A stretch of DNA of 64,000 nucleotides from Rufibacter sp. LB8 (lineage in GTDB: Bacteria > Bacteroidota > Bacteroidia > Cytophagales > Hymenobacteraceae): assembly GCF_014876185.1 (NCBI RefSeq), contig NZ_JADALJ010000001.1:2895501-2959500 (forward strand), in the 5' to 3' direction. The position numbers and the translations under genes were made by a program. The notes under the pieces were generated by a model that was given only the letters and a program-made list of their open reading frames with translations, had not been told where the DNA came from and searched no databases. Numbering within the stretch: the first letter of the stretch is position 1; every line of letters starts with the position of its first letter. Positions 3,276-59,250 of this stretch are shown one piece after another.

Positions 3276-3316
3276 CCGTTTTTGGCCTCGTTTCTGGAAA
3301 TGAGCCCGAAAACAGG
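3276..3316. repeat. GAGCCC palindrome between convergent genes
   Basis: The right arm is the consensus (GGAAATGAGCCCGAAAAC); the left arm is altered (TTTTTGGCCTCG). It fills the 54-bp gap between two convergent stop codons, where it could stop both transcripts. Confidence 0.8.
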
Positions 3317-3322
3317 AACAAC

Positions 3323-4537
3323 CTATACCACCATGGTGAACGTGGAGCCTTGGTTGACGGTGCTGCGCACGCGCATTTCGCCGTTGCGGTTCTCCACCAG
3401 CCTTTTGACAATGTAAAGGCCCAGGCCGCTGCCTTCCACGTGGTCATGGAACCGCTTGAACATGGTGAACACCTTGTCCAGTTTGTCTTCCGGAATGCCC
3501 AGACCGTTGTCTGTCACAGACAAATGTTGCCGCCCGTCTATCTGCTCCAGCTTCACCAACACTTCGGGCATTCTTTCCGGGGAACGGTACTTGAGCGCGT
3601 TGCTGATGAGGTTGTAGAGAATGCTCTTGAAATTCTGGCGCGAGAAAGATAGGGTTCGGCCGTGGGGCACTTCTACTTTAATCTTGCCTTTTGATTCCAG
3701 CAAATGGTGGTTCAGGTCTTCCTTGACCTGGCTGATCATCTCCAGCAGGTCAATTTCCTCGGTAGGGTCTTCGTCATAGTCCTGGCTGGCGCGCACAATG
3801 GCCGTGAGGTCTTTGATGGTGCCGCCAAACCTGCCCAGCGATGACCGCATAAGCGTAATCACCTGGTCCATTTCCTCTTTGTCTATCTGGTCTTGGTGCA
3901 CCACTTGCTCCAGCACGTCTAGCAGGCCTTCAATGTTGGCTACCGGCGATTTTAAGTCATGCGCGGCAGTATAGACAAAATTGTCAAGGTCAAAGTTGGT
4001 GTTGGTTAGCACTTTGTTCTGGCGCCGAAGGTCCAGGTTGAGGGTATGGCTCTGCTGCAGCAGCTCCAGGCTCTCCAGATGGAAAGACAGCAGCTCCGCG
4101 AACATGGTCATGGTGCCCACCACTTTCTCTGTGTTCACCTGGGCCGGGCGGGCGTCTATGGCGCAGAGCGTGCCAAAAAAAGCGCCGTTTCTTAAGATGA
4201 TCGGCACGGAAATGTAACTCTGCAGCCCGTAAATTTTGGGCGTATGGTGGTCACAGTACTGAGAGTCTTCTGCCACGTTGTCAATGACAATGGGCTGGCG
4301 GTGGTCTCTTATTTCATTGCAGAGCGTGGTCTCAATGGGCAGTTCGCCGCCTTCGCCCAAGCCAAAGTTCACCTCGTCATGCACGCTGCAGGCCACCCAC
4401 CGGTCATTGGTCACCCGGGCCACGGCCGCGTAGCCCATGCCCGTGGTCTGGGTGACAACTCTGAGCATGGTAGGGATAAGGGAAATCTGCCTGACGGCTT
4501 CTATGTCTTGGTATAACTCGTCTGTGATGTCAATCAT
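3323..4537 (-). CDS. GAF-domain sensor histidine kinase
   Basis: This 404-residue soluble kinase has a GAF sensor domain (about residues 20-155), a HisKA dimerisation domain with phospho-acceptor His193 in AAHDLKSP, and an HATPase domain with N-box SNALKYRSPER and G-box DNGLGIPE, ending FTMVV. There is no membrane helix, so it senses an internal or diffusible signal. The frame extends 23 codons upstream, but the Met at 4537 (MIDITDEL) starts the conserved part and is preferred. No response regulator is adjacent. The transmitter half is clearly paralogous to that of the triple-PAS kinase (shared LDNFVYTA, HDHVEGSG, GLYIVK). Confidence 0.85.
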   Translation of the reverse strand: MIDITDELYQDIEAVRQISLIPTMLRVVTQTTGMGYAAVARVTNDRWVACSVHDEVNFGLGEGGELPIETTLCNEIRDHRQPIVIDNVAEDSQYCDHHTPKIYGLQSYISVPIILRNGAFFGTLCAIDARPAQVNTEKVVGTMTMFAELLSFHLESLELLQQSHTLNLDLRRQNKVLTNTNFDLDNFVYTAAHDLKSPVANIEGLLDVLEQVVHQDQIDKEEMDQVITLMRSSLGRFGGTIKDLTAIVRASQDYDEDPTEEIDLLEMISQVKEDLNHHLLESKGKIKVEVPHGRTLSFSRQNFKSILYNLISNALKYRSPERMPEVLVKLEQIDGRQHLSVTDNGLGIPEDKLDKVFTMFKRFHDHVEGSGLGLYIVKRLVENRNGEMRVRSTVNQGSTFTMVV

Positions 4538-4761
4538 GGGGGTGATGTGATCTGCTGCTACAGGGGAATAAAGGATTTTCGGGCCAGTTGGTTCCGGGTA
4601 GTACAATAAAATTAAAATATTTAATATTTACTATACCCGGTCCTTCCTTTCTGGTTTTGAAAAATATACGGCAGGCACTCACCTGGCAGTTTCATTGCCT
4701 GTACCACTTCCAGTCTCTGCATCTTTCCATTCTTGAAAGCAGTACCCAAAGACGGCTAAGC

Positions 4762-4794
4762 AAAAAAAAGGCGACCCTTTTCTAAGAGTCGCCT
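4762..4794 (-). terminator. Rho-independent terminator of the barrel-like lipoprotein gene
   Basis: On the minus strand AAGGCGAC and GTCGCCTT pair around a 12-nt loop and are followed by eight T. It lies about 70 nt past the stop at 4865 and beyond a palindrome. Confidence 0.7.
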
Positions 4795-4821
4795 TGGGCG
4801 TTTACGGTATATTTGTTTTGG

Positions 4822-4860
4822 CGTTTTCGGCTTGGTTTCTGGAAATGAGCCCGAAAACGG
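4822..4860. repeat. GAGCCC palindrome at a gene 3' end
   Basis: The arms GCGTTTTCGG and CCGAAAACGG enclose GGAAATGAGC; the left inner arm is altered to CTTGGTTTC. It begins 4 nt past a minus-strand stop codon and precedes a conventional terminator. Confidence 0.8.
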
Positions 4861-4864
4861 AAAT

Positions 4865-6145: not shown

Positions 6146-6195
6146 TGACCACCCCCAGCCCCTCCTAAAACAGGAGGGGAGCATTACTATAAATT

Positions 6196-6235
6196 GCGTT
6201 TTCGGGCTCTGGATTGGAAATGGAGGCGAAAACGC
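6196..6235. repeat. GAGCCC palindrome, diverged
   Basis: The outer arms GCGTTTTCG and CGAAAACGC are intact; the inner arms read GGCTCTGGATT and GGAAATGGAGG. Confidence 0.6.
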
Positions 6236-6250
6236 GAGTATCATTCTCTA

Positions 6251-8555: not shown

Positions 8556-8590
8556 TTAATTGTTGATTGGTTGTTGTTGATTGAGGTTTC

Positions 8591-8629
8591 TGTTTTCGGG
8601 CTCATTTCCAGAAATGAGCCCGAAAACGG
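8591..8629. repeat. GAGCCC palindrome after the sulfatase gene
   Basis: TGTTTTCGGGCTCATTTC faces GAAATGAGCCCGAAAACGG, nearly perfect. It lies 35 nt past the stop, between two co-directional genes. Confidence 0.85.
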
Positions 8630-8682
8630 AATCGCTTTCCCCAAGGAAACCGGCGCTGTGTGAAACTAAACCTGGCATATAG

Positions 8683-10397: not shown

Positions 10398-10426
10398 AAA
10401 AGGCCGCGCTGGTAGCGCGGCCTTTT
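10398..10426 (+). terminator. Rho-independent terminator of the reductase gene
   Basis: AAAGGCCGCGCT pairs with AGCGCGGCCTTTT around GGT, 30 nt past the stop codon. A GAGCCC palindrome follows directly. Confidence 0.85.
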
Positions 10427-10465
10427 CCGTTTTTGGCTTCATTTTCAGAAATGGGCCCCAAAACG
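10427..10465. repeat. GAGCCC palindrome next to a terminator
   Basis: CCGTTTTTGGCTTC faces ATGGGCCCCAAAACG. It abuts the terminator of the reductase gene, so it is not needed for termination there. Confidence 0.75.
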
Positions 10466-10528
10466 TGCAGTTTACATAAATGCCGCCTCGCATGGTGATT
10501 GTGAGGAAAGACGCCACAGTTCAGGTAG

Positions 10529-10568
10529 GCGTTTTTGGCTTCGTTTTCAGAAATGAGCCCCAAAACGC
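10529..10568. repeat. GAGCCC palindrome at the triple-PAS kinase 3' end
   Basis: GCGTTTTTGGCTTCG faces GAAATGAGCCCCAAAACGC; it ends 6 nt before the kinase stop codon, about 60 nt from the previous copy. Confidence 0.8.
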
Positions 10569-10574
10569 CTGGGT

Positions 10575-12760: not shown

Positions 12761-12806
12761 AAGCCGTTTTGGGGCTCATTTCTGAAAATGAGCCCCAAAA
12801 CGGCTT
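12761..12806. repeat. GAGCCC palindrome, perfect 21-bp arms
   Basis: AAGCCGTTTTGGGGCTCATTT and its exact complement surround CTGA. The outer extension AAGCC/GGCTT is unique to this copy, and a run of A precedes it. It lies 24 nt beyond the stop of the following kinase gene (minus strand). Confidence 0.9.
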
Positions 12807-13876: not shown

Positions 13877-14112
13877 ATAAAATATGGAATGGATGACAGC
13901 ATGAACGGGCGGGGGATGCCCGGCAAACGGAGGTTTTAGGCGGGTACAACCCCCAAAACCCAGATACTAACGGCAAAGATAGTCCAATGTTTTACCAGAT
14001 TGCTCATAATGGGCCGTGTATTTCCTTTCAAAGCAGCGCGTGAGCCGCACGTTTCAACTTGGCAGCCACGCACCGTCTTGCCTTTGCGTCAATCCACGTC
14101 TTAGCTTTTACT

Positions 14113-14156
14113 TTCCGTTTTGGGGCTCATTTCTGGAAATGAGCCCCAAAACAGAA
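14113..14156. repeat. GAGCCC palindrome in the carB upstream region
   Basis: TTCCGTTTTGGGGCTCATTTC faces GAAATGAGCCCCAAAACAGAA. It lies between two divergent genes, so it does not act as a 3'-end terminator of either. Confidence 0.85.
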
Positions 14157-14321
14157 ATTCTCTCTGCCCACTTTTGAAAATATGCCAACAATTCTGCCAG
14201 GCGTACATAGTTTTTGGCAATAAAACCTTTGCTCTGTTTCCTTGGGCCGAAGAAAACAGCGGTTACCTTACTTTTTTTCAAAGACTCCCGTAAAATTCCT
14301 TCATTTCTAAACTTTACACTT

Positions 14322-17221: not shown

Positions 17222-17252
17222 AAAGGGCTGTTCCACTGGAGCAGCCCTTTTT
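17222..17252 (+). terminator. Rho-independent terminator of carB
   Basis: AAAGGGCTG pairs with CAGCCCTTTTT (loop about 10 nt), 50 nt past the carB stop. Confidence 0.8.
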
Positions 17253-17289
17253 GCGTTTTCAGGCTCTGGATTTGAAATGGAAGCTAAAC
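17253..17289. repeat. GAGCCC palindrome, degenerate
   Basis: GCGTTTTCAGGCTCTGG faces GAAATGGAAGCTAAAC; the right outer arm has decayed. It follows directly on the carB terminator and opens island B. Confidence 0.5.
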
Positions 17290-17352
17290 CAGAATTCCCG
17301 CCGTTGTTGGTGTTCATAGGGGCCAACAACCTGAACTGCGGCTCTAGCTGCC

Positions 17353-20299: not shown

Positions 20300-21040
20300 A
20301 TGAAAAAACTACGCTGCCTGGCGGTAGATGACAAACCGCTGGCCCTGGACATACTTTCAGATTACATTCAGAAGATTGATTTCCTGGAACTGGCGGGCAG
20401 CACCACCAGCGCCCTGGAAGCCCTGAAACTGGTAGACCAGGAGAAAGTGGATCTGCTGTTTCTGGACATTCAGATGCCCGAGCTCACCGGTATACAGGTC
20501 ATGAAGATTCTGGGCAACAAATGCCACGTCATTCTCACCACCGCCTACACCGAATACGCGCTGGAAGGCTACGAACACAACGTGATAGACTATCTGCTCA
20601 AGCCCATCGCGTTTGACCGTTTTTACCGCGCCGCCCAAAAAGCGCAGCAACTTTTACTGCCTGCTTCAGAACCGGCCCCAGCCGTAACGCCTGCCGCAGC
20701 GCCAGAAAACACGGGCCAGGGCATCATCTTCGTGAAGACCGAGTACAAGCTGGTGAAAATCAGGCTAGACGATATTCTGTACGTGGAAGGCCTGCAGAAC
20801 TACGTGTCCATCTACACCAAAACCGAACGGATTCTGTCTTTGCGCAACATCAAGAAAATGGAGGAACAGCTGCCCAGGCCGCAGTTTGTGCGGGTGCATA
20901 AATCCTACATCGTGCCGCTAGACAAGATTGATTCCATTGAGCGCAACCGCATTTTTATTGGCGAAGCCGTCATTCCCCTGGGAGACACGTACCGCGAAAA
21001 CTTCATGCAGATTATTGAAGACCTTCAAACGGCCCAATAA
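20300..21040 (+). CDS. LytTR family response regulator
   Basis: This 246-residue regulator has a receiver domain (1-120) with phospho-acceptor Asp56 in LLFLDIQMP, conserved Asp10-Asp11 and Lys in LLKPIAFDRF, then an Ala/Pro-rich linker and a LytTR DNA-binding domain (about 145-246, ILYVEGLQNYVSIYT, FVRVHKSYIVPLDKI). It is the partner of the preceding LytS-type kinase. LytTR proteins bind pairs of short direct repeats; the targets are not evident from the window. Confidence 0.92.
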   Translation: MKKLRCLAVDDKPLALDILSDYIQKIDFLELAGSTTSALEALKLVDQEKVDLLFLDIQMPELTGIQVMKILGNKCHVILTTAYTEYALEGYEHNVIDYLLKPIAFDRFYRAAQKAQQLLLPASEPAPAVTPAAAPENTGQGIIFVKTEYKLVKIRLDDILYVEGLQNYVSIYTKTERILSLRNIKKMEEQLPRPQFVRVHKSYIVPLDKIDSIERNRIFIGEAVIPLGDTYRENFMQIIEDLQTAQ

Positions 21041-21050
21041 GGCAAAATTC

Positions 21051-21090
21051 CCGTTTTCGGGCTCATTTCTGGAAAGAAAGCCGAAAACGG
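21051..21090. repeat. GAGCCC palindrome, right arm altered
   Basis: CCGTTTTCGGGCTCATTTC is intact; the right inner arm reads GGAAAGAAAGCC. It starts 11 nt past the LytTR stop. Confidence 0.75.
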
Positions 21091-21270
21091 AAACATCCCT
21101 GCCGCAAGTTACGGTATCGCTAAACTTGCAGCAGGAGTTCTTATAGAGACAATGTGCCTTGCCTCACGGTTGAGGTCGCAAAAGAAGCCTGCTCAAAAGA
21201 CATGCTAGCGTGCGCAGTTCCTACAAGCGTTTGTGCCAATTGCCTTTATCCCTAAACATTCTTCTTCAGA

Positions 21271-21308
21271 CGTTTTCGGGCTCATTTACAGAAATGAGCC
21301 CGAAAACG
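21271..21308. repeat. GAGCCC palindrome, near perfect
   Basis: CGTTTTCGGGCTCATTT faces AAATGAGCCCGAAAACG around ACAG. It is located 50 nt after the stop of the minus-strand SBBP gene. Confidence 0.85.
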
Positions 21309-21358
21309 GGACTTGCCTAATTGATGGTTAGCGTGAAGGATTATAGCTGTGGCTTTCC

Positions 21359-24277: not shown

Positions 24278-24520
24278 ACTTATCTTTTTAACCATGTGCA
24301 GTCTGATTTTAGATTCAACGTCTTCCCTTTACCAGTGCAGAATTACAGCTACACATAGTAGAAGCAGAATTTCTAGTTGAAACGCATCATTACCAAGCAA
24401 GGGAAAATATTCCTTAACAGTTCATTCTTCTATTCCAGCGAAATAGATTTCAATAGCCCTCTTCATTGGGAAAGATAAGAATCCGACTGCTATGATAGGA
24501 TTAGCCTGTCAAAAATAATC

Positions 24521-24562
24521 CCCGTTTTCGGGCTCATTTACAGAAATGAGCCCCAAAACGGG
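24521..24562. repeat. GAGCCC palindrome, hybrid arms
   Basis: The left arm is the C type (CCCGTTTTCGGGCTC) and the right arm the other type (GAGCCCCAAAACGGG), giving one C-C mismatch. It is 22 nt past the symporter stop. Confidence 0.8.
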
Positions 24563-24583
24563 AATTCTAATCTTTGCTACCTG

Positions 24584-25969
24584 CTACCTACTACTCAACC
24601 GCTCTGCTTTCATTCTGGCGAAATAGTCTTTGGCGGCGGTCATTACTTTAGGCGATAAAATCAACGCGCACGCCATAGTAGGAATAGCCATTAGCGCAAA
24701 AGAGGTGTCAATTAAATCTATGATAGATTTCATGGTGACCACCGCGCCAATAATGACCGTGGAAATATAGAAGAAATCATAGGCCCGGCGGTATTTGAAC
24801 CCAAATAGGTAGGTGAAGCACTTGGAGCCATAGTAGCAGTAAGAAAACAGAGACGTAAACGCGAAGATAAACACGCAAATAACCAGCAGGTACTTGCCCA
24901 TTACGGGCATGGCCGCCTCAAAGGCTTGCGCGGTCATAGAAACCCCATTGCCCGTATCAGCGCCTTGCCACACGCCCGTCACCAGAATGGCAAGGCCGGT
25001 CATGGTGCAGACAATGATGGTGTCAATGAAAGGCTCCAGCATGGCCACCAGGCCTTCGCGCACGGGCTCATTGGTTTGGGATTCGCCGTGCATCATGGCG
25101 GCGGTGCCAATGCCGGCCTCATTGGAGAAAGACGCCCGCCGCGCACCCATGATGATAATCTGCATGACGGCCCCGCCCAAAACAGCATTGCCTGTGAAAG
25201 CATCTTCAAAGATCATGGCAAACATAGACGGCACCGCCGAAATATTCACCCCAATGATGTAGAGCACCGAGCCCGTGTAAAGCACCACCATTAACGGCAC
25301 CAACTTAGTAGCCACGCTGGCAATTCGCTGCAAGCCCCCAAACATGATAATGGCCACCGGAAACGCCAACGCTATTCCCATAAACAAATTAGAAAGAAAA
25401 GCATCTTCATTGGTGACCACGCCACTGGGCACCAGCACCACATCACGCACAATCTGGGTGAGTTGGTTAGACTGAAAAAGTGGCAACGTACCAATAAGGC
25501 CGGCGGCGGCAAACAGGATGGACAACGGTTTCCATTTCTGGCCCAGCCCTTCGGTGACCATGTACATGGGGCCACCCTCCACTTCGCCGCGCTCATTGCG
25601 GCCGCGGTACATGACAGACAGTGTACAGGTGAAGAACTTGGTGGCCATGCCCACAATAGCGCTCACCCACATCCAGAAGAGCACGCCGGGCCCGCCCATG
25701 GCAATGCCCACGGCCACACCGCTAATATTGCCCATGCCAATGGTAGACGCCAGCGCACTGGCCATAGCCTGAAACGGACTTATTTTACCGGGCGCGTTGG
25801 GGTCCACGTATTTCCCACGCAAGATTTCAATGGAATGGCCCAGGTGCCGGAAAGGCACAAACCGGCAATACAGCATCAGGAAAAGGCCGCCGCCCATAAG
25901 CAAGATCAACAAAGGCATGCCCCAGGCCAGACTGCTGGCTTCGGCAAGAAAGGTTTCTATATTTTCCAC
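24584..25969 (-). CDS. Alanine/glycine:cation symporter (AGCS family)
   Basis: This 461-residue polytopic protein has about eleven membrane helices. It carries AGCS signatures: FQAMASALASTIGMGNISGVA in the first third, EGGPMYMVTEGLG around residue 130, and ASFSNEAGIGTAAMMHG around residue 285, which lines the substrate path. These carriers import alanine or glycine with Na+ or H+. It is transcribed alone. Confidence 0.9.
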   Translation of the reverse strand: MENIETFLAEASSLAWGMPLLILLMGGGLFLMLYCRFVPFRHLGHSIEILRGKYVDPNAPGKISPFQAMASALASTIGMGNISGVAVGIAMGGPGVLFWMWVSAIVGMATKFFTCTLSVMYRGRNERGEVEGGPMYMVTEGLGQKWKPLSILFAAAGLIGTLPLFQSNQLTQIVRDVVLVPSGVVTNEDAFLSNLFMGIALAFPVAIIMFGGLQRIASVATKLVPLMVVLYTGSVLYIIGVNISAVPSMFAMIFEDAFTGNAVLGGAVMQIIIMGARRASFSNEAGIGTAAMMHGESQTNEPVREGLVAMLEPFIDTIIVCTMTGLAILVTGVWQGADTGNGVSMTAQAFEAAMPVMGKYLLVICVFIFAFTSLFSYCYYGSKCFTYLFGFKYRRAYDFFYISTVIIGAVVTMKSIIDLIDTSFALMAIPTMACALILSPKVMTAAKDYFARMKAERLSSR

Positions 25970-26027
25970 GGATATAAAAATGGTCTAGCATGCAAACTTA
26001 CGGTCTGCGGTTGGCAAAATAACGGTC

Positions 26028-26066
26028 TGTTTTTGGCCTCTGTTTTGAAAATGAGCCCCAAAACAG
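26028..26066. repeat. GAGCCC palindrome upstream of the symporter gene
   Basis: CTGTTTTTGGCCTCTG faces AAAATGAGCCCCAAAACAG. It lies in a co-directional gap, 60 nt before the symporter start and 90 nt past the DCC gene stop. Confidence 0.75.
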
Positions 26067-26159
26067 GTATCTATCTGAGTTACAACACCAAAATTCTATA
26101 GAAGAACTAGAGATTTTTAGCACAGAGCAATTTACGTGAAATTTTGGGCGAAACCACCG

Positions 26160-27319: not shown

Positions 27320-27337
27320 TCAACTGTAATAATACCG

Positions 27338-27383
27338 CCAAAAGAAAAGGCAAAACCCGCGGGTTTTGCCTTTTCTTTTGGCC
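27338..27383 (+). terminator. Long perfect hairpin terminator
   Basis: A perfect 46-nt palindrome (GCCAAAAGAAAAGGCAAAAC and its complement around CCGCGG), 19 nt past the Thr/Gly lipoprotein stop. It is unrelated to the GAGCCC family. Confidence 0.85.
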
Positions 27384-29363: not shown

Positions 29364-29417
29364 AAAATTCCCGTTTTGGGGCTCATTTCCAGAAATGAGC
29401 CCCAAAACGGGAATTTT
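29364..29417. repeat. GAGCCC palindrome with the longest arms plus T run
   Basis: 26-bp perfect arms; the outer extension AAAATTCCC/GGGAATTTT makes it look like a bidirectional Rho-independent terminator between two convergent genes (stops at 29344 and 29416). Its right end overlaps the last bases of the minus-strand gene. Confidence 0.9.
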
Positions 29418-29769
29418 AGTTTTTGTCCTTTTCTAAAGATTCCATTTCGCGGAGTACCTTTTGGGAGGCAATGATCATTTGGTCTAGCTCAGACGTTTTG
29501 CCAGTAATTTTAAACCTGAAATTCTGCGCATCTGCCTGCTTCATGTTCGTGCTCACCACAAAAGCTAAGGTGATAGGCGCTTCAGGCGAGTTCTCCTTGA
29601 AAATATCTCTTATATCTTGCCAGTTAATATCTGAAAGCTCTTCTAGGTTCGCTGCTTTCAATTGAAAGGTGGAAACAGTGGTAGTTGCTTCCCCTTTTTT
29701 CTCCTGCGCGTTTCCTGTAAAAAAGAAGAACAGGAGTAATCCGGTCAATAAAAAGCCTTTTGATTTCAT
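29416..29769 (-). CDS. Small secreted protein, unknown
   Basis: This 117-residue protein has a signal peptide (LLTGLLLFFFFTGNAQ, cleavage near 21). The mature part is mixed polar with predicted helix and strand (LEELSDINWQDIRDIF, APITLAFVV) and ends in a Lys/Glu-rich helix. I do not recognise a family. It is followed at close distance by the XRE/DUF2975 pair on the same strand, but a 43-bp gap leaves co-transcription open. Confidence 0.55.
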   Translation of the reverse strand: MKSKGFLLTGLLLFFFFTGNAQEKKGEATTTVSTFQLKAANLEELSDINWQDIRDIFKENSPEAPITLAFVVSTNMKQADAQNFRFKITGKTSELDQMIIASQKVLREMESLEKDKN

Positions 29770-31675: not shown

Positions 31676-31754
31676 TGTCTTACTACCAAGGCAGTGCAGA
31701 CGCATTTGCCATCTTTTCATGCGTGGCCACACACTTCGGCCTTTATATTTCACA

Positions 31755-33102: not shown

Positions 33103-33148
33103 TTTCCGTTTTCGGCTCCATTTCCAGAAATGAGCCCTAAAACGGAAA
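33103..33148. repeat. GAGCCC palindrome after the helicase gene
   Basis: TTTCCGTTTTCGGCTCC faces GAGCCCTAAAACGGAAA; it is followed 20 nt later by a true terminator. Confidence 0.75.
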
Positions 33149-33168: not shown

Positions 33169-33203
33169 AAAAGCCCGGACGTACACTGTACGCCCGGGCT
33201 TTC
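33169..33203. terminator. Bidirectional terminator between convergent genes
   Basis: AAAGCCCGG and CCGGGCTTT enclose CGTAC/GTACG, with A and T runs at both ends, between the helicase stop (33077) and the minus-strand stop at 33237. Confidence 0.8.
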
Positions 33204-33653: not shown

Positions 33654-34263
33654 AGTTGTAAGTATTAAGTAGTCTATTTTATTTCTGGGTTCCAATTGCT
33701 TGGGTTGCAGGCCAAACTGACGCGTGGCCGAATCTCTTGTATCGGGAAAGCGGCAGAATGGTTGCGTTGGCTTCTCACTTTTTTACTATTTCTTTCGCTC
33801 CGTCCTTTTTACGTCTCAAAATCGACGCAACAATATTCAATCAGAACTATATATGCATTTTCTCTTATTCTGATCCTATTGCCTACGTTTCCAAACACTG
33901 CAGGCCGTTTGCCGTGTCTAACTGCTGTCCCTTCACCTAAAGAATCGCTCGGCCGCATTGCAAGCCGTACCCAAAAAGTCTTATTTCTAACCAAAGGACC
34001 ATCGTTCTGTTCTGCGTTTTCCGTTTTTGGCTTCGTTTCCAGAAATGAGCCCGAAAACGAAAATCCGGCAAACTGACCCAGGCCGCGGGCCGAAAGTGAA
34101 TGTTGGCGTACTTCTTGATTAATGTGGCCCGCACGGCCCAGAGGCTTGGCAGGTCCTGAAAAAAACAGTAAACTTACTTTCTATTGGCCCGCTAACCGAA
34201 AACCAGGGAAAATCCTGTTAATTCTGAGCCAGTCTTTTACTTATGATTTCAACCACAATCCCT
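33654..34263. other. Intergenic region
   Basis: 610 bp between divergent genes. Apart from one GAGCCC palindrome at 34017-34062, it is AT-rich in its left half, and I see no gene, no terminator and no clear -7 box. Confidence 0.6.
34017..34062. repeat. GAGCCC palindrome, left arm altered
   Basis: TTTTCCGTTTTTGGCTTCG faces GAAATGAGCCCGAAAACGAAAA. It lies between divergent genes, 200 bp before the M28 peptidase start. Confidence 0.75.
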
Positions 34264-35568
34264 ATGAATCTAAAAAAAGTATCTGTTGCGCTGGGGCTGG
34301 CCTGCTTGCCCTTTACCGGCGCCATGGCCCAGAAAGCGGTCAAAAACATTCAGCAGAAAGACGTCACGCGCATTGTCAAGACCCTGGCCGCTGATGACAT
34401 GCAGGGCCGCAGAACGTTTACGCCCGGCATTGAGAAAGCCCAGGATTTCATTGCCGCTGAGTTCAAGGCCATCGGGTTGCAGCCTTTGGCCGGCGACACC
34501 GATTTCAAGCAGGAATTCAAGATGTACCAACTCACCCCAGACAAAGTAGACGTGGAAGTGAACGGCGACAAGGTGAAACCTGAAAACCTGTTCTACAGCA
34601 CCGTGCACCGCAAGATTGAGTGGGAAGACAAGGCGCCGCAACCTATTTTCATTGGCGAGAATGATGATTTCAGACAAGGCATCAACAAAGCCCGCCAGCA
34701 GACCAAAGACGCGCTGGTGGTGGTGCACCCCAAGCACCAGGCCATGTTCAGCCGCTACGCCAACTTCTTTAAGCAGTCTAGCCCGGTGGCTGAGTTGGGC
34801 AAAGGCCCCACCATTATCTATGTCATGACCGAGCTAACCCAGATCACGTCTCTGGATGTGGAGATTAAGAACGATGCCAAAGAATTGAATCTGGCCAACG
34901 TGGCGGGCATGATTCCGGGCAAGCGCGCCAACGAGTTTGTGGTGTTCTCGGGTCACCATGACCACATTGGCATTCAGAAAGCCCTGGACGGCGACTCCAT
35001 AGCCAACGGCGCCGATGACGACGCTTCCGGCACCACGGCCGTGATCACGCTCGCGCGCCATTTCAAGAAACAACCCAAGCCAGAGCGCACGCTGCTGTTT
35101 GTGACGTTCACCGCAGAGGAAATTGGCGGTTTCGGCTCACAGCATTTCTCCAAGCAGCTAGACCCAGACCAGATTGTGGCCATGTTCAACATTGAGATGA
35201 TCGGCAAAGGCTCCAAGTTCGGGCCTAACACGGCGTACATCACGGGCTTTGAGAAATCAGACTTCGGTACGCTGTTGCAGGCCGCCGTGAAAGGCACCGC
35301 TTACAGTTTCCACCCAGACCCGTATCCCAAAGAAAACCTGTTCTACCGCTCAGATAACGCTACGCTGGCCCGCCTGGGCGTTCCGGCGCACACCATCTCA
35401 TCGGTACAGATTGACCAAGACAAACTCTACCACAGCGTGAACGATGAGGTGGAAAGCCTGGACATGGCCCACATGACCAACATGATCAAAGCCATTGCCT
35501 TAGGCGCTGGTGATTTTGTAAAAGGCAAGAAAACGCCTAAACGCGTAGACAAAACCCAGGTGCAGTAG
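34264..35568 (+). CDS. M28 family metallopeptidase
   Basis: This 434-residue secreted peptidase has a signal peptide (VALGLACLPFTGAMAQ). The zinc-binding M28 motifs are in order: SGHHDHIG (first His/Asp), GADDDASGT (bridging Asp), FTAEEIGGFGS (catalytic Glu and zinc Glu), NIEMIGKG, and a late His in VPAHTIS. An N-terminal region of about 110 residues with ADDMQGRRTFTPG is typical of these aminopeptidase/carboxypeptidase-type enzymes. Exact specificity cannot be told. ATG 34264 is directly before the signal; an earlier Met at 34243 is possible. Confidence 0.88.
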   Translation: MNLKKVSVALGLACLPFTGAMAQKAVKNIQQKDVTRIVKTLAADDMQGRRTFTPGIEKAQDFIAAEFKAIGLQPLAGDTDFKQEFKMYQLTPDKVDVEVNGDKVKPENLFYSTVHRKIEWEDKAPQPIFIGENDDFRQGINKARQQTKDALVVVHPKHQAMFSRYANFFKQSSPVAELGKGPTIIYVMTELTQITSLDVEIKNDAKELNLANVAGMIPGKRANEFVVFSGHHDHIGIQKALDGDSIANGADDDASGTTAVITLARHFKKQPKPERTLLFVTFTAEEIGGFGSQHFSKQLDPDQIVAMFNIEMIGKGSKFGPNTAYITGFEKSDFGTLLQAAVKGTAYSFHPDPYPKENLFYRSDNATLARLGVPAHTISSVQIDQDKLYHSVNDEVESLDMAHMTNMIKAIALGAGDFVKGKKTPKRVDKTQVQ

Positions 35569-35589
35569 ACGTTCCAGTTTAAAAGAGTA

Positions 35590-35645
35590 AAAGTCTCCCG
35601 TTTTCGGGCTCATTTCTGAAAATGAGCCCGAAAACGGGAGACTTT
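35590..35645. repeat. GAGCCC palindrome acting as terminator, perfect 26-bp arms
   Basis: AAAGTCTCCCGTTTTCGGGC and complement surround CTGA and end in a run of T (ACTTTTTTT), 21 nt past the M28 stop. It is the clearest terminator-like copy on the plus strand. Confidence 0.9.
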
Positions 35646-35718
35646 TTTTATGGGATTTGCCGTACGTTGGTGCTTTTTTGAAAATATGCATGGCGCAGAA
35701 CTGGCAGAACCACGCTGT

Positions 35719-35868: not shown

Positions 35869-35921
35869 AATTCCCAGAATTTATTTCGATGTTGTCCTTT
35901 CCCATACATCCGGGAAATAAT

Positions 35922-35963
35922 TTCCGTTTTTGGCTTCGTTTCCGGAAATGAGCCCGAAAACAG
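35922..35963. repeat. GAGCCC palindrome, left arm altered
   Basis: TTCCGTTTTTGGCTTCGTTTCC faces GGAAATGAGCCCGAAAACAGG; no T run follows. Confidence 0.75.
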
Positions 35964-36020
35964 GATTTGACTGATTGCCTTAAGCGAAATTATTCACATA
36001 ACTCTTTACAGCGAGACATA

Positions 36021-36055
36021 AAAAAAGCGCTTCAGTCTTAGACCGAAGCGCTTTT
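36021..36055 (-). terminator. Rho-independent terminator of the large lamin-tail gene
   Basis: Minus strand AAAAGCGCTTC pairs with GAAGCGCTTTTTT, loop about 11 nt, 40 nt past the stop codon. Confidence 0.85.
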
Positions 36056-42287: not shown

Positions 42288-42334
42288 TTTTCCGTTTTCG
42301 GGCTCATTTTTGGAAACGGAGCCAAAAACGGAAA
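42288..42334. repeat. GAGCCC palindrome, right arm altered
   Basis: TTTTCCGTTTTCGGGCTCATTT is intact; the right arm reads GGAAACGGAGCCAAAAACGGAAA. Confidence 0.75.
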
Positions 42335-42518
42335 CGGGGCCCATTCAACCCAGAATTACAGGTAATGACAGGAGCCACTTCACTCTCCAGCCAAGACCGT
42401 TCCGCTAGATTCTGCCAAATAGAAAGACTGTTCTATTATAAATAAAGGTGTAGCGATTTTAATGGGTCCGCGGGCGAGGCGCATAATCGTTCTTGCCAAC
42501 TGACTAGAAAAACCGATG

Positions 42519-42560
42519 TCCGTTTTGGGGCTCATTTCTGAAAATGAGCCCCAAAACGGA
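42519..42560. repeat. GAGCCC palindrome, perfect
   Basis: TCCGTTTTGGGGCTCATTT and complement around CTGA; 22 nt past the TonB receptor stop. Confidence 0.9.
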
Positions 42561-42582
42561 ATCGCGCAGCCAAAGAAACAGC

Positions 42583-44985
42583 TTAGAAATTCCCGCGCAG
42601 GGTCAAGAGTAGATTACGGCCGGGCGCGCTTACGCCAGAGGCGTACACGCGGTAGAATTGGTCCAGCATGTTCTCCAGGCCAGCCTGTACTTGCAGCCGT
42701 GGATGAAGCTGGTAAGAGGCGCGCAGGTTGAGCGTGTACCAGGCGGGCACGCCTTCCGGGGTGGCGTACTGCAGGTTATCTTCGCCCACGGGGTTGTAGT
42801 CTTTCAGGCGTTTCCAGCCGTTGTACTGCACGTAGAACTCAGACTGAAACTTAGGCAGCGTGAGAAAGAAACTAGTTTTTCCGAACACCGGCGGAATGTG
42901 ATCCAACGGAATTTCACCGGTTGCCTCTTTGATGCGCCCGTAGGTGTACGTCAACGAGGAAGTCAGCCGGAAAGCCTGGCTTATATCGGCGGCAATAGAC
43001 CCGCTGAACCCGTACACGTAGGCGCGGCGCGCGTTCACGTTGGCCGTCACCTGGCTGATGCGGCCATTGTAGTCAATCTGGGGTTGCCCCTGGTACAGAA
43101 AAGGTTGCGTGGTGATGGCATCACGGTACCAGGTGTAGAAACCAACGCCTTCCAGCCGCACGCTCTGCGCCACGGTTTTGCCAAGGCTGAGCTCCGCGTT
43201 GTAGGTGTATTCTGGCTTTAAATCTGGGTTAGGCACAATCAACTGCCCCGCCACCGACTCAAACACTTTGCCCAGATCATCTACGTTAGGCGCCCTGAAC
43301 CCCGAGGAAGCCACCGCCGCGAAGCGCCAGTCTTGCCCCGGCTGAAAGATTAGCCCCAGGTTTCCGTTTACGGCGGTGTTCTTCTGGTTCACTTCGTCAA
43401 ACGGAAACGGGAAAAACGCTTTATCGGTGAAATCGGCGTTCAATTCCACGCGGCTGATGCGTATGCCGTCAGACAGAATCCAGCGGGGCGAAATTTCCCA
43501 GGTATGCGTAAAATAGGCTGCCGCGTTGCGCATGTGTGACCCGCCGCTGGGGTAGCGCGTGTCCAGCGGCGTTTCCTGCCCTGTGTTCACATCTGACCCA
43601 TAAGCCCGGGAACCTACTTTGTTGTAGCCCAACTCCAGGCCATACCGCAGTTCGTGTGTATTCAAAAGGCGGCTGGCATCAGCGTTCAAGGTGAAGACGT
43701 CAACTTCTTCCAATCTGTTTTGTAGCACATTTCGGCCAAATCTTCTGTTATGCCGACTTTCTTTCACGTTCTGGTAAGCGCCGGTCAAGCGCAGGTTCTC
43801 CAGCCAGCCTTTGCCCTGCGTGGCGAAGGTGTAGGCCGCCAGCAACCGTTCCTGCGGCCCGTAGTACCATTGCCCGTGGTTCAGTTTGCCTTGCGCGTCT
43901 ACTTCGGTGAGGCGATCATACCTGGGAATATCTGATGACGTGGAATACTGCAGATTGAGCACATGAGAAGTATTGGCCGATGCCTGGTACAGCACTTTCT
44001 GCAACAGATCATATTGTTGGTAACCGCTCTGCTTCTGCACGTTCACGTTGTTGTTGGGCACTTGCACGTCTTGCCCGTTCTGGCGTTCGGCGTAAAACGG
44101 GCGCAGGCCCCAGTTGCCGTAAAACGGATTGCGCTGGGCCCCCTGCCGCAAATCCCCGAAATCTGAGAAAGTGAGGCTGGTGAGACTTCCCCATTTCTGG
44201 CCTCCTACTGACACATTCACGTGGGCGGTTTTCTCCTGGTTGGCGGTGGCGTAGCGGGTGAAGGCGGTGCCCGTTACTTTGGTGCCCGCACTGTCAGCCA
44301 GTTTAGGTTCTTTGGTGTAGAAATGCACCACGCCGCCCAGGGCATCTGACCCATACACCACAGAACCCGGCCCAAACACTACTTCTACTTTCTCCAGCGC
44401 GGCATTGTCAACGGTGATCACGTTCTGCAGGTGGCCGCCGCGGTAAATGGCATTGTTCAAGCGCACGCCGTCTATCACCATGAGTACCTTGTTGGCTTCA
44501 AAACCGCGCAAAATGGGGCTTCCGCCGCCGGCCTGGCTTTTCTGCACCAGAATCTGGCCGGTCTGCTGCAGCACATCGGCGGTGGTCTGGTTGTTCTGGA
44601 AGGCCAGATCGCGGGCTTTCAAGACCTGAATCTGTTGGGGCACATCACCTCGGTTCTCTTCAAACTTACTGGCAGACACCACCACTTCATTCAAAGAATA
44701 GCTTCGTTCTGTGAGTAAGATTCGGTAGTGTGCGTTCTTGATTTGCTGCAGAGAAAGCGTGCGTGGCTGATAATCTGTGCGCTCAAACCGAAGGCTGTCT
44801 GTGGCTCTGAAATCTGTAAAATTGAACTGGCCCTGGGCGTTGGTCAACTGGGCGCCACCGCCTTGCACGGGCACTATCCGTACTCCCGCCAGCGGCTGCA
44901 GATTGGCTTTGTCCAACACCGTGGCGCGCTGCCCCAGCACCGCCAGCGGCAAACAGAACATAAGAAAAACAAGGAAAGACTTCAT
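42583..44985 (-). CDS. TonB-dependent outer-membrane receptor
   Basis: This 800-residue protein has a signal peptide (LVFLMFCLPLAVLGQ), a carboxypeptidase-like regulatory domain (about 20-95, LAGVRIVPVQGGGAQL), a plug (DVPQQIQVL through LRGFEANKVLMVIDGVRLNN and VVFGPGSVVYGSDALGGVV) and a 22-strand barrel ending LLLTLRGNF. The plug is closest in style to haem/haemoglobin-type receptors, so uptake of an iron compound is possible but not proven. No SusD partner is present. The start at 44985 is chosen since the 36 upstream codons run through a palindrome. Confidence 0.88.
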   Translation of the reverse strand: MKSFLVFLMFCLPLAVLGQRATVLDKANLQPLAGVRIVPVQGGGAQLTNAQGQFNFTDFRATDSLRFERTDYQPRTLSLQQIKNAHYRILLTERSYSLNEVVVSASKFEENRGDVPQQIQVLKARDLAFQNNQTTADVLQQTGQILVQKSQAGGGSPILRGFEANKVLMVIDGVRLNNAIYRGGHLQNVITVDNAALEKVEVVFGPGSVVYGSDALGGVVHFYTKEPKLADSAGTKVTGTAFTRYATANQEKTAHVNVSVGGQKWGSLTSLTFSDFGDLRQGAQRNPFYGNWGLRPFYAERQNGQDVQVPNNNVNVQKQSGYQQYDLLQKVLYQASANTSHVLNLQYSTSSDIPRYDRLTEVDAQGKLNHGQWYYGPQERLLAAYTFATQGKGWLENLRLTGAYQNVKESRHNRRFGRNVLQNRLEEVDVFTLNADASRLLNTHELRYGLELGYNKVGSRAYGSDVNTGQETPLDTRYPSGGSHMRNAAAYFTHTWEISPRWILSDGIRISRVELNADFTDKAFFPFPFDEVNQKNTAVNGNLGLIFQPGQDWRFAAVASSGFRAPNVDDLGKVFESVAGQLIVPNPDLKPEYTYNAELSLGKTVAQSVRLEGVGFYTWYRDAITTQPFLYQGQPQIDYNGRISQVTANVNARRAYVYGFSGSIAADISQAFRLTSSLTYTYGRIKEATGEIPLDHIPPVFGKTSFFLTLPKFQSEFYVQYNGWKRLKDYNPVGEDNLQYATPEGVPAWYTLNLRASYQLHPRLQVQAGLENMLDQFYRVYASGVSAPGRNLLLTLRGNF

Positions 44986-45039
44986 ATAAGTAGGCAAGGT
45001 GTTGTACTGGTTTGTTGGCTGGAAGGAAGATTGGTTAGA

Positions 45040-45083
45040 TTCCGTTTTCGGGCTCGTTTTCAGAAATGAGCCCGAAAACGGAA
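45040..45083. repeat. GAGCCC palindrome upstream of the receptor gene
   Basis: TTCCGTTTTCGGGCTCGTTTTC faces GAAATGAGCCCGAAAACGGAA, one G-T wobble. It lies 55 nt before the receptor start. Confidence 0.85.
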
Positions 45084-45189
45084 CATTTGGCAACCCTGAT
45101 ACTGCTTGGGAAAATCACCTGATGGCATGGCACTGGGCATGTTGCAAAATCAGAAACGCGGGCCAACTCTTCAGGGAAACGCACCATTT

Positions 45190-45669: not shown

Positions 45670-45716
45670 AGGAACGTAAAAAAGTGGCTGGGCAAAGATA
45701 AGGAAGTGAATAGTTT

Positions 45717-45752
45717 GTTTTGGGGCTCATTTCTGAAAACGAGGCCGAAAAC
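45717..45752. repeat. GAGCCC palindrome between divergent genes
   Basis: GTTTTGGGGCTCATTTC faces GAAAACGAGGCCGAAAAC; the right arm is altered. Confidence 0.75.
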
Positions 45753-45870
45753 GCAAAAGAAAAAGTTGATCCCGCACCTGGCGCTGGCATACGCCGGGAA
45801 CGCGACCGGCCGTTTTACTGTTCAGATAACCAACAAAACCCCCTATCTTTCGCCGCACAGATAAAATCAC

Positions 45871-48711: not shown

Positions 48712-48756
48712 TTTCTGTTTTCGGGCTCATTCCTGAAAACGGAGCCAAAAACGAAA
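48712..48756. repeat. GAGCCC palindrome between the GH18 genes
   Basis: TTTCTGTTTTCGGGCTCATT faces GAAAACGGAGCCAAAAACGAAAA; it is 20 nt before the second GH18 start. Confidence 0.75.
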
Positions 48757-48775
48757 AACTAGTAGTCCATGCTTT

Positions 48776-50239: not shown

Positions 50240-50252
50240 GCGGAATTGAACA

Positions 50253-50295
50253 CCCTGTTTTCGGGCTCATTTCAGGAAATGAAGCCAAAAACGGG
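50253..50295. repeat. GAGCCC palindrome, right arm altered
   Basis: CCCTGTTTTCGGGCTCATTTC faces GAAATGAAGCCAAAAACGGG; 14 nt past the GH18 copy 2 stop. Confidence 0.8.
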
Positions 50296-50343
50296 AATTG
50301 GACTTTGGCTTATTAATCTACGGTATCCAGATTTATGTTAATA

Positions 50344-50580: not shown

Positions 50581-50618
50581 ATTATCGCCCTGATCCAGTT
50601 CAAAACTCCATAAACTCC

Positions 50619-50659
50619 CCTATTTTCGGGCTCATTTCCCAAAACGAGCCCGAATACGG
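50619..50659. repeat. GAGCCC palindrome, altered centre
   Basis: CCTATTTTCGGGCTC faces GAGCCCGAATACGG: the A in the left arm is matched by T in the right, a compensatory pair found nowhere else in the window. Confidence 0.8.
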
Positions 50660-50662
50660 AAA

Positions 50663-54500: not shown

Positions 54501-54513
54501 TAGAACACGAATT

Positions 54514-54553
54514 CCCGTTTTGGGCTTCATTTACAGAAATGAAGCCCAAAACG
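54514..54553. repeat. GAGCCC palindrome, variant GGCTTCATTT type
   Basis: CCGTTTTGGGCTTCATTT and AAATGAAGCCCAAAACGC around ACAG: both arms carry the same compensated change (GGCTTC/GAAGCC). It lies 35 nt before the GH3 gene start. Confidence 0.85.
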
Positions 54554-54588
54554 CACACTTAACCTTGAACACTAATTACCTGACAATC

Positions 54589-57676: not shown

Positions 57677-57726
57677 AAAAAAGGCCGGGCCGATTTCATA
57701 CCTTGAAATCGGCCCGGCCTTTTTTT
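57677..57726 (+). terminator. Rho-independent terminator of the GH3 gene
   Basis: AAAAAAGGCCGGGCCGATTTCA faces TGAAATCGGCCCGGCCTTTTTT: stem of about 20 bp with a T run, 16 nt past the stop. Confidence 0.9.
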
Positions 57727-57730
57727 ATAG

Positions 57731-57776
57731 TTTCTGTTTTTGGCTTCGTTTCCAGAAATGAGCCCGAAAACGGAAA
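57731..57776. repeat. GAGCCC palindrome beside the GH3 terminator
   Basis: TTTCTGTTTTTGGCTTCG faces GAAATGAGCCCGAAAACGGAAA; directly after a complete terminator. Confidence 0.75.
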
Positions 57777-57912: not shown

Positions 57913-57930
57913 GAGGGTGTTGAGTTATTT

Positions 57931-57970
57931 TTGTTTTCGGCTCCGTTTCCAGAATTGAGCCCGAAAACGG
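57931..57970. repeat. GAGCCC palindrome, left arm altered
   Basis: TTGTTTTCGGCTCCG faces GAATTGAGCCCGAAAACGG; 13 nt past the stop of the following minus-strand gene. Confidence 0.75.
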
Positions 57971-57982
57971 GAAATCCGAGTT

Positions 57983-58870
57983 TCAATTACTGAGCGTGAC
58001 TTGGAAAATAGTGCCTTTCACACCTTTCCCATTCATTCCTTTGTCAGACCATTTGCCTTTCCGGTAGGTCCAGGTAAGTTCTTTCCCTGATTTAAAGCCT
58101 CGTGAATTGATGGCGGGCTCAAACGAAATGGCGTTTACTTCTTTCTTGGTCTCTTTCTCCACATAGGTGAACGCGTGCTTGTTCTCCTCAATTACCAGCC
58201 ATTCAAACGCAATGAACATGCCTGTGCTAGGCACTTGCAGGTTGTATTGGCTTACATCCAGCGTAATGGTTTTATACACACCCTTCGGCGCGAAGGCCAC
58301 CAGCGGAGCAGGTGTCAGGTCTTTGCCGGGTTCCCCGTTCTGGTTCACCTCAAAAAGCCTGATGTGGAACCGGGCATTTGGTATGTCACTGGAAGTGGAG
58401 AAGGCAATCTCCTCCAGATAAGGTGTTGCGTCAAAACTCTGGTTGTAGGGCAGGAAATCAGCCACAATCCAGGGCCCTCCGTGAGTCCCGAAGCTGTGGG
58501 AGACTTTCGCTTTCTTCAGGTTATGGAGCACCAGCTTCTTCCGCCTTTTGCTTTTCTTGACCACCACTTCCTACAACGCCACCGCAGACGGTTGCAAGTG
58601 GAGCACCATTGGCCCAGATGTGATATTGAAACGGCCCCGTTCGTACCCCAAACAGGAAACCACCAGCACCTTGCCCGCCGTCGCCTTATCCCCGAGAGAG
58701 AAAGCCCCCGCTTCTGTAGAGGTCACGCCTACGTCTTCGTTCTCCAACCAGATATTGGCATAGGCCACCGGTTTGCCGGTGACTTTGTCCACCACCGTGC
58801 CGGTAATCTGGCCAAAGGCGGTTCCTGCGTACAGCAAAAGCACACAAATGCCCCAATAGTATTTTTTCAT
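57983..58870 (-). pseudogene. Carboxypeptidase-like regulatory domain protein split by an in-frame amber codon
   Basis: Read on the minus strand, 296 codons form one frame with a single TAG at 58571-58573. Before it: a signal peptide (GICVLLLYAGTAFGQ) and a carboxypeptidase-like regulatory domain (ITGTVVDKVTGKPVAYANIW to VLVVSCLGYERG, MVLHLQPSAVAL). After it: EVVVKKSKRRKKLVLHNLKK and about 190 residues containing PYLEEIAFSTSSDIPNARF, all well formed. Bacteroidota homologues are usually continuous across this point (LEEVVVK-type). TAG is one base from CAG. Either a recent nonsense mutation or readthrough. Confidence 0.75.
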
Positions 58871-58875
58871 AGATT

Positions 58876-58914
58876 CTGTTTTTGGCTTCGTATCCAGAAA
58901 TGGGCCCGAAAACG
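58876..58914. repeat. GAGCCC palindrome, left arm altered
   Basis: CTGTTTTTGGCTTCG faces AAATGGGCCCGAAAACG; right next to the start codon of the amber-split gene. Confidence 0.7.
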
Positions 58915-58923
58915 CAGTTACTT

Positions 58924-59175
58924 TTACCTACTCAAGGTAAGCTGAAAATGCGGGGCGGCAAAGGAAACAGCATTGCCTTTTCTGATATCTGTGGCGCCCC
59001 TGGCCTTTGTCATAGATTCAGCCATGATAACTTTGGCAGGCACGGTGACCTCTCCTTTCTCATCTAGGGTGGTGCATAAGCCGTTTTTTCTACCCAAATG
59101 GTGATATGCGCCGCCGTTTGCTTCGATGCTTTGCCCAGCATGGTCCAGTGACTTGGGCCTGGTCAATAGCGGCAA
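58924..59175 (-). CDS. Possible small or remnant gene, unknown
   Basis: An open frame of 83 codons ends at 58924. The C-terminal half (LDEKGEVTVPAKVIMAESM, NAVSFAAPHFQLTLSR) looks like a real secreted or enzyme C-terminus; codon use resembles neighbours. It is bracketed by two GAGCCC palindromes, as genes here usually are. No family recognised; it may be the remnant of a larger gene. No signal peptide. Confidence 0.3.
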   Translation of the reverse strand: MPLLTRPKSLDHAGQSIEANGGAYHHLGRKNGLCTTLDEKGEVTVPAKVIMAESMTKARGATDIRKGNAVSFAAPHFQLTLSR

Positions 59176-59212
59176 TACTTAAAAGACAGGCAAGCATACT
59201 TTTAATATGGTA

Positions 59213-59250
59213 CTTTTTCAGCTTTGTTTCTGGAAATGAGCCTAAAAACA
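59213..59250. repeat. GAGCCC palindrome, degenerate
   Basis: CTTTTTCAGCTTTG faces GGAAATGAGCCTAAAAACAG; both arms have changes. Confidence 0.55.

Follow-up and report, generated by a model that had tools for sequence, protein, structure and literature searches.

The stretch analysed here is a window of 64,000 nucleotides (nt) within contig C1 (4.59 Mb) of Rufibacter sp. LB8 (G000; genome 4.75 Mb, two contigs), and it carries many copies of one palindrome lying between genes. Protein matches of this genome are mostly to Bacteroidota. An earlier note on this DNA had counted about 35 copies, one per ~1.8 kb, from position 3276 to 59250. We searched for copies with a symmetric weight matrix of 46 columns that was refined iteratively on 864 kb of G000 (the window and 40 stretches of 20 kb), at a threshold of at least 14 bits. 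The matrix also gave 35 copies in the window, of which one (1225-1270) is doubtful, and the reversed sequence gave none above 8 bits. Copies do lie in the range that was named, but they extend far beyond it, along the whole chromosome. Comparison with other genomes showed that the palindrome is one copy-rich extragenic dyad family of the whole genus, and its copies are mostly old and stay in place.

The copies in the window are given below without a strand, together with the number of pairs formed in the 21-pair stem and, where relevant, the neighbouring genes with their strands. Genes were called by a codon-usage script, the stops of which are more reliable and the starts rough.

1225-1270: doubtful copy, 8/21 pairs, 16 bits
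3273-3318: element copy, 16/21 pairs, 69 bits
4818-4863: element copy, 15/21 pairs; stop codon 1 nt before
6193-6238: degenerate copy, 11/21 pairs, 36 bits
6482-6527: element copy, 16/21 pairs, outer five paired
8587-8632: element copy, 19/21 pairs
10424-10469: element copy, 14/21 pairs
10526-10571: element copy, 16/21 pairs
12761-12806: perfect copy, 21/21 pairs; minus-strand T tract after the stem, terminator-like
14112-14157: element copy, 20/21 pairs; flanking genes divergent
17250-17295: degenerate copy, 7/21 pairs, 20 bits
17604-17649: degenerate copy, 11/21 pairs, 32 bits
17891-17936: element copy, 14/21 pairs
21048-21093: element copy, 16/21 pairs; directly behind the stop of 20300-21040(+)
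21267-21312: element copy, 17/21 pairs
24519-24564: element copy, 19/21 pairs; 19 nt after the stop of 24584-25969(-)
26024-26069: element copy, 14/21 pairs
29368-29413: perfect copy; stem extends to 26 bp (29364-29417), overlapping the stop codon of 29416-29769(-)
30777-30822: perfect copy; stem 30774-30825, 3' of 30846-31424(-)
33103-33148: element copy without T tract, preceded by the stop of 31572-33077(+) and followed by a separate terminator hairpin (33170-33202)
34018-34063: element copy, 16/21 pairs
35595-35640: perfect copy; stem 35589-35646 (27 bp), then a T tract; 26 nt after the stop of 34243-35568(+), terminator-like
35921-35966: element copy, 14/21 pairs; then a separate hairpin (36023-36055)
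42289-42334: element copy, 16/21 pairs, outer five paired
42517-42562: element copy, 19/21 pairs; 20 nt after the stop of 42583-45093(-)
45039-45084: element copy, 19/21 pairs; overlaps the TTG start call of 42583-45093(-), probably placed too far upstream
45712-45757: element copy, 14/21 pairs
48712-48757: element copy, 13/21 pairs
50252-50297: element copy, 15/21 pairs
50617-50662: element copy, 14/21 pairs; TATTTT/GAATA variant, not compensated
54512-54557: element copy, 18/21 pairs; compensated GGGCTTC/GAAGCCC; overlaps a TTG start call
57731-57776: element copy, 16/21 pairs; adjoins a terminator hairpin (57677-57725)
57928-57973: element copy, 13/21 pairs
58873-58918: element copy, 12/21 pairs
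59209-59254: degenerate copy, 10/21 pairs, 32 bits

Half-site build and spread across the genus

Each copy is composed of two 18-nt half-sites facing each other over 2 nt, which makes a 38-nt build. The half-site consensus of G000 is TTTCCGTTTTCGGGCTCATTTCC, and the general half-site is approximately YGTTTTnRGSCYGnTTTC; the CTCATTT of G000 corresponds to CTGTTTT in the congener G006. The two major versions described in the earlier note both exist, but there are in fact three, with C (54%), T (27%) or G (14%) at half-site position 11 in G000. The gap between facing half-sites was constant in 270/270 cases in G000, 207/210 in G006, and 61/68 and 57/65 in two further congeners, G004 and G014. Positions 8-9 and 19-20 are separated by 11 bp, about one turn. 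At a score reached by three quarters of real half-sites, only 2/464 in G000 and 2/388 in G006 were located outside elements.

The arm TTTTSGGGCTC with at most one mismatch occurs 46 times in the window against 3.9 expected, and 448 perfect cores are present across the G000 genome. The 864-kb sample contained 376 copies of at least 14 bits, and the chromosomal stretches, with 370 copies in 784 kb, extrapolate to ~2,170 for C1. The other contig, C2 (155 kb), is probably a plasmid; one stretch of it matches plasmids of Hymenobacter (5/9 records), Adhaeribacter, Pontibacter, Fibrella and Spirosoma. The four stretches sampled from C2 (L035-L038) contain 6 copies in 80 kb, scoring 15 to 54 bits, with G in 7/12 and C in 3/12 half-sites at position 17. 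Few and richer in G than C at this position, the C2 copies look as if imported from another species. A chromosomal stretch of 36% G+C, L039 (C1:110001-130000), contained zero copies and is probably a recently acquired island.

A covariance model was built from 57 palindromes of congeners (60 chosen, 3 removed by hand), the rows being selected for pairing. It matched 16/16 genomes of the genus, with 104 to 150 of the 150 candidates scored in each. Under stricter filters, 1/46 genomes from other genera of the family was matched, weakly, among at most 103 scored candidates per genome, and 0/60 genomes from the rest of the phylum among at most 102. In four other genera of the family, 80 kb (four stretches of 20 kb) contained zero copies. 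Copy density in congeners was similar to that in G000, with 311 copies in 800 kb of G006, and 114 (G004) and 104 (G014) in 200 kb; the reversed control gave 0. The perfect core of G000 is nearly absent from congeners; among 38 relatives, two have one copy each. A repeat private to the species was ruled out by the congener palindromes, which have the same 38-nt build in other spellings, and by the 16/16 genus matches. Spelling is tight in G000 and G006 and much looser within G004 and G014; it was likewise variable in the few G010 and G011 copies seen. There was no Rfam match within the window at the gathering score, and no published description of the palindrome was found in a literature search that included few subscription papers. 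A broad survey of repetitive extragenic palindromic (REP) sequences does not contain the word Rufibacter in its main text (PMC12306157, in part).

Position behind genes and inheritance in place

Placement was analysed for the 336 copies of at least 30 bits in the G000 sample, 331 of them chromosomal. The palindrome had been described as occurring only between genes, which is mostly the case: an overlap with a predicted gene is seen for 13 of the 336 but for 76% of random positions, so copies are by no means as frequent inside genes. Two of the 13 are in the window (45039 and 54512), where starts were likely called too far upstream. A further 20 copies are at stretch edges, and the 303 with two neighbours comprise 103 convergent, 163 tandem and 37 divergent ones; the latter, like the copy at 14112, agree with the earlier observation that some copies separate divergent genes. 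Tandem copies follow the stop at a median of 44 nt, with 33/163 at 0-9 nt, and 77/150 lie within the first 20% of the gap. When gaps of 60 nt or longer are counted, 243/389 in G000 (convergent 73/85, tandem 137/229, divergent 33/75) and 232/418 in G006 (60/73, 144/271 and 28/74, respectively) contain a copy. The copy score in G000 was 57.4 in divergent, 56.0 in tandem and 59.5 in convergent gaps.

To follow copies between species, we compared G000 with G006 (77% identity, ~23% of aligned bases differing) and the sister pair G004/G014 (86% identity where aligned). Of the orthologous gene ends at which the gap was 60 nt or longer in G000 as well as in G006, 26 carried a copy in both, 5 in G000 only, 4 in G006 only and 14 in neither (P 4e-5). 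In the same order the counts were 25/5/4/8 for gaps of at least 90 nt (P 0.003) and 20/5/4/7 for gaps of at least 120 nt (P 0.02), so that the association is weaker but present; without the gap restriction they were 24/8/3/28, confounded by operon-internal genes. The distance from stop to copy agreed within 10 nt at 12 of the 26 shared ends, compared with 4.1 expected. In the sister pair, flank-anchored copies had a counterpart in 66/77 (G004) and 74/76 (G014) cases, and a further 23 and 20 copies could not be anchored. For eight of the 13 copies without a counterpart, over 120 nt of the flank did not align, and at least one of these loci (153456) does have a counterpart in another comparison; the others keep the gap or more. 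Each flank was anchored alone in this analysis; an alignment spanning the site, which a 46-nt gap breaks, is unable to show an empty site. No clean empty site, in which the flanks align right up to the edge on both sides but the element is absent, was found between G004 and G014 among the anchored loci, and another comparison of the pair gave the same result.

Individual gene ends of the window were inspected by eye in congeners. Behind 24584-25969 a copy was present in 11/11 mapped congeners, some of them degenerate. Behind 30846-31424 the hairpin was at the same place in 13/15 congeners, strongly diverged in G012 and G015, and the sisters G007 and G013 carry an ordinary terminator instead. 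Behind 31572-33077 the copy, which precedes a terminator, is found in G000 alone and in none of the 15 congeners shown (G015 in part); this is one likely gain, which indicates that gains do occur.

Two side observations concern gene ends. The terminator behind the helicase-type gene 31572-33077 (33170-33202) keeps a similar layout in the congeners shown and is in most of them close to AAACAGAAAAGCCG...CGGCTTTTCTGTTT. A near-identical hairpin, AGACCTCACAGGTTTT(C/G)AAAACCTGTGAGGTCT, is present in five congener stretches, at L160:7867, L164:12490, L168:6468, L169:4804 and L175:19198; four of the five represent one gene end, behind the orthologue of 42583-45093, and the fifth is elsewhere.

The spelling differs between species at shared places. 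Half-site position 17, compared at 24 shared gene ends, is C in 46/48 half-sites of G000 and G in 45/48 of G006. When the G006 matrix was applied to the 864 kb of G000, it gave 335 sites, all but one already found, and the G004/G014 matrix gave 372 sites with 9 weak new ones (16-22 bits). Since the congener matrices added almost no new sites, hardly any reservoir of the old spelling remains in G000. Different spellings at the same inherited places suggest a putative protein that reads the palindrome.

Stem pairing, sequence constraint and terminator-like copies

The earlier note held that the outer stems always pair. In the window, all five outermost pairs are complete in 7/35 copies, with the whole stem ranging from 7 to 21 of 21, and in the G000 sample the outermost four are complete in 83/336, which does not support that statement. 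The stem extends at least 4 nt beyond the 46-mer in 12 copies, 10 of which belong to these 83 (~1 expected there). The arms do covary, as had been noted: pair 11 showed 74 compensated changes in G000 against 31 expected under independent arms, pairs 1-5 were also above chance, and pair 17 covaried in few cases (4 vs 0.4 expected). Pairs 14, 15, 16 and 18 showed no clear excess in the 336 copies. The covariation score of the 57-row model, 0.470 compared with 0.156 when shuffled, is biased because its rows were selected for pairing. Of two single variants that had been read as compensated, GGCTTC/GAAGCC (placed at 54514) was borne out at 54512-54557, and TATTTT/GAATA at 50619 was not, as the sequence holds an A-C and a T-T mismatch. 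At orthologous G004/G014 loci, both sides had changed in 16 pairs against 7.9 expected, and 13 of these were again Watson-Crick. The double changes numbered 5 (1.6 expected) in 4 well-paired loci and 11 (6.6 expected) in the other 48. The excess is strongest in the former and weak in the latter. In most copies the arms diverge independently, an outcome that the earlier note had named as refuting its reading.

Sequence constraint was measured at 43 intergenic ungapped loci of the G004/G014 pair. Positions 8, 9, 19 and 20, chosen from their uniformity in G006 and thus a fair test, had changed in 16/344 cells, compared with 376/1682 in the flanks (P ~2e-17). A five-position set that adds position 15 had changed in 24/430 cells, although it was chosen after the rates on the same loci had been seen; the seven variable positions had changed in 153/602. 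In copies with fewer than 14/21 pairs, the five-position set was still changed in 14/230 cells against 215/915 in the flanks. T runs alone would not account for such slow change, since the middle base of TTT/AAA runs in the flanks had changed in 17%. The proposal that the fold and not the sequence is kept therefore fails for most copies, in which a few positions are far more conserved than the flanks even when pairing is poor. Among 442 tandem-gap copies of four species read in the RNA sense, there was no preference for G-U (647) over A-C (661) mismatches. Because of this and the near-constant spacing, recognition of double-stranded DNA fits better than an RNA fold. Taken together, the sequence constraint, the mismatch balance and the spacing favour, without proving, recognition of double-stranded DNA in a nearly fixed geometry.

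Part of the family resembles intrinsic terminators. Of 250 tandem copies within 60 nt of the stop, 47 have a T tract behind the stem on the sense side and 17 on the antisense side; in those of the same class with all five outer pairs, the counts are 22/44 and 3/44. Beyond 100 nt from the stop they are 24/148 and 19/148. From these counts, about half of the well-paired near-stop copies look like intrinsic terminators and most copies do not. Complete terminators adjoin some copies, as had been reported, at 33103 (33170-33202) and at 57731 (57677-57725). The earlier view that termination alone is insufficient to explain the palindrome agrees with these data, as most copies are without a T tract and some are beside separate terminators.

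At 27337-27382 the window has a perfect 46-bp inverted repeat without a loop (GCCAAAAGAAAAGGCAAAACCCG and its complement), and similar hairpins, CAGAAAAGGCA...TGCCTTTTCTG, occur in five congener stretches of that region.

Possible roles of the palindrome and comparison with known systems

We tentatively propose, with confidence just short of even, that the palindrome is an extragenic dyad of REP-like kind, which a putative sequence-specific protein recognises in double-stranded form, and that a minority of copies have been reused as terminators. The protein would contact both half-sites of each copy in double-stranded DNA, and the bound copies would have an organising role for DNA at gene ends, such as retaining supercoils or pausing polymerase between converging genes. 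The minority with long perfect stems and T tracts would act additionally as intrinsic terminators. Several points weigh against this proposal. No binding protein turned up, and a systematic search for one was not made. The constraint comes from one sister pair, in which 33/100 G004 copies did not align through, so that the measure may favour conserved copies, and the whole element evolves only a little slower than its flanks (357/1978 vs 376/1682). The spacing is not absolute: 15/67 sister alignments contain an indel within the 46 nt, of 1-5 nt in 14 of them and of 10 nt in the remaining one. The compensated changes in very well-paired copies are what selection on a hairpin would produce, and copies with at least 19/21 pairs are rarer in divergent gaps: 3/31 in G006, compared with 18/76 in convergent and 18/178 in tandem gaps, and 0/11 in G004 and 0/9 in G014. 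Within 60 nt of stops, G-U was slightly above A-C (353 vs 309, P 0.09). The enrichment at 3' ends and the excess of T tracts fit an RNA role equally, and a mobile element may have left the consensus behind as a relic.

The last points lead to the other explanations. The palindrome could act as a 3'-end RNA hairpin, terminating transcription in both directions or protecting or marking mRNA 3' ends, with the fold under selection on RNA. The short distance behind stops, the occupied convergent gaps, the sense bias of T tracts, the scarcity of well-paired copies in the divergent gaps of three congeners, the compensated changes in G000 and between sisters, and the ordinary terminator that replaces the hairpin behind 30846-31424 in two sister congeners all agree with this. 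However, G-U mismatches are no more frequent than A-C, most copies lack a T tract and some have separate terminators beside them, sequence positions are constrained even in badly paired copies, the spacing is nearly invariant, and divergent-gap copies of G000 score as high as others. We consider this explanation fairly unlikely. The excess of matching double changes without a G-U excess, and the stems that in some copies run into locus-specific flanks, would also be produced by template switching (quasipalindrome correction), in which replication slips between the arms and copies one onto the other, so that the arms match without selection on the fold. This mechanism has been published for hairpins (PMC8794818, in part), but it accounts only for arm matching and not for the frozen positions, the placement at gene ends, the spacing or the genome-wide spelling, and is very unlikely as an explanation of the family.

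A REP-like mobile palindrome, spread by a tyrosine (Y1) or other transposase, settling behind genes where it is least harmful and changing its spelling in successive waves, is unlikely in our judgement. In its favour, copy number, size and position are REP-like (PMC3733652, in part), the copy found in G000 alone behind 31572-33077 implies gains, 8/77 anchored G004/G014 loci are ambiguous, and Bacteroidetes have a Y1 transposase subclass flanked by atypical repeats (PMC6006769, in part). Against it stand the absence of clean empty sites between G004 and G014 among anchored loci, the occupation of the same gene ends at similar distances in G000 and G006, and the near disappearance of old-spelling copies from G000. 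The check for a linked transposase that the earlier note had called for did not reveal one: copies lie within 300 nt on both sides of 1/6 Y1_Tnp genes in G000, compared with 90/494 genes generally. In addition, G007 has no Y1_Tnp match at E 0.001, yet 150 of its 150 scored candidates match the element model. The Y1 transposase gene in L009, which has the element on both sides, was considered as mobiliser and rejected, as it has relatives in only 3/16 genus genomes. A DNA uptake sequence, a motif steering natural transformation with species dialects as in Neisseriaceae, would share with the palindrome the thousands of copies, the dialects and the inverted pairs at terminators (PMC3630211, in part), and the few copies on the likely plasmid C2, with their mixed G and C at position 17, would fit. 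In Neisseriaceae, the uptake sequence is a short single motif found frequently within genes (PMC3630211, in part), whereas half-sites outside elements are almost missing in G000 and G006, and this explanation is highly improbable.

We also compared the palindrome with known systems. It is ordinary as a REP-like extragenic palindrome: like the GTAG and CGTC super-families of REP and bacterial interspersed mosaic elements, it belongs to the 20-40 bp palindromes that are found behind genes in numerous copies and favour convergent and tandem over divergent gaps (PMC3733652, in part). It is unusual in its kept places, constrained DNA letters, nearly fixed spacing and in-place spelling change. Unlike REP sequences, it has no tags, no Y1 linkage and largely an inheritance in place between species, and it is a dyad of two half-sites of near-constant spacing whose spelling varies between species at shared loci. 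The REP tag GTAG/GTGG was found at the palindrome foot in 24/331 chromosomal copies, compared with 34 in shifted control windows, and CGTC in 5/331, compared with 8. Several Y1 genes of G000 resemble the printed motifs of the Bacteroidetes Y1 subclass 2.6 (RAYT group 5), from the same phylum (PMC6006769, in part); in contrast to its atypical repeats, the G000 Y1 genes are flanked by other palindromes, and G007 has the element without a Y1_Tnp match. Neisseriaceae uptake sequences are the nearest parallel for the spelling change (PMC3630211, in part), but the palindrome is a fixed 38-bp dyad whose half-sites are hardly ever single or inside genes. A minority resembles intrinsic (Rho-independent) terminators in having a long perfect stem and then a T tract just after the stop, whereas most copies have imperfect stems, a shared sequence and no T tract, and some adjoin a separate terminator.

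The other palindromes beside Y1 genes were recorded as well. In L013, the Y1 (RAYT-like) gene 1411-1977 is flanked on both sides by GACACTCGTAGG...CACTACGAGGTC, and similar sequences are located downstream of genes in G002, G015 and G004; this palindrome may be the true repeat of the L013 transposase type. The flanks of the Y1 genes in L012 and L011 carry GTTCGGGA-N8-TCCCGAAC, those in L010 carry CCCGCAAGTTTAGCGC..., and a related CCGCAAGTT...AACTTGC repeat is present in the window near 21100.

The usual explanations of extragenic palindromes are mobile litter and RNA hairpins. The family described here occupies over half of the longer gaps in G000 and G006, keeps its places at ~23% divergence and is constrained at DNA letters more than in its fold, and it illustrates that arm covariation alone can mislead. 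It offers a tractable case for two open questions, the role of palindromes at gene ends and the joint respelling of thousands of dispersed sites. For the latter we regard a dialect switch in place as possible but rather doubtful: in about two thousand inherited gene-end sites of one genome, the same two half-site positions would have switched from GT to CA or CG, or in the opposite direction, without transposition. The cause would be either concerted evolution or sites following a putative DNA-reading protein whose specificity had changed. If true, the palindrome would serve one bacterial genus as a genome-wide punctuation system, in which site and protein form a lock-and-key pair evolving by species.

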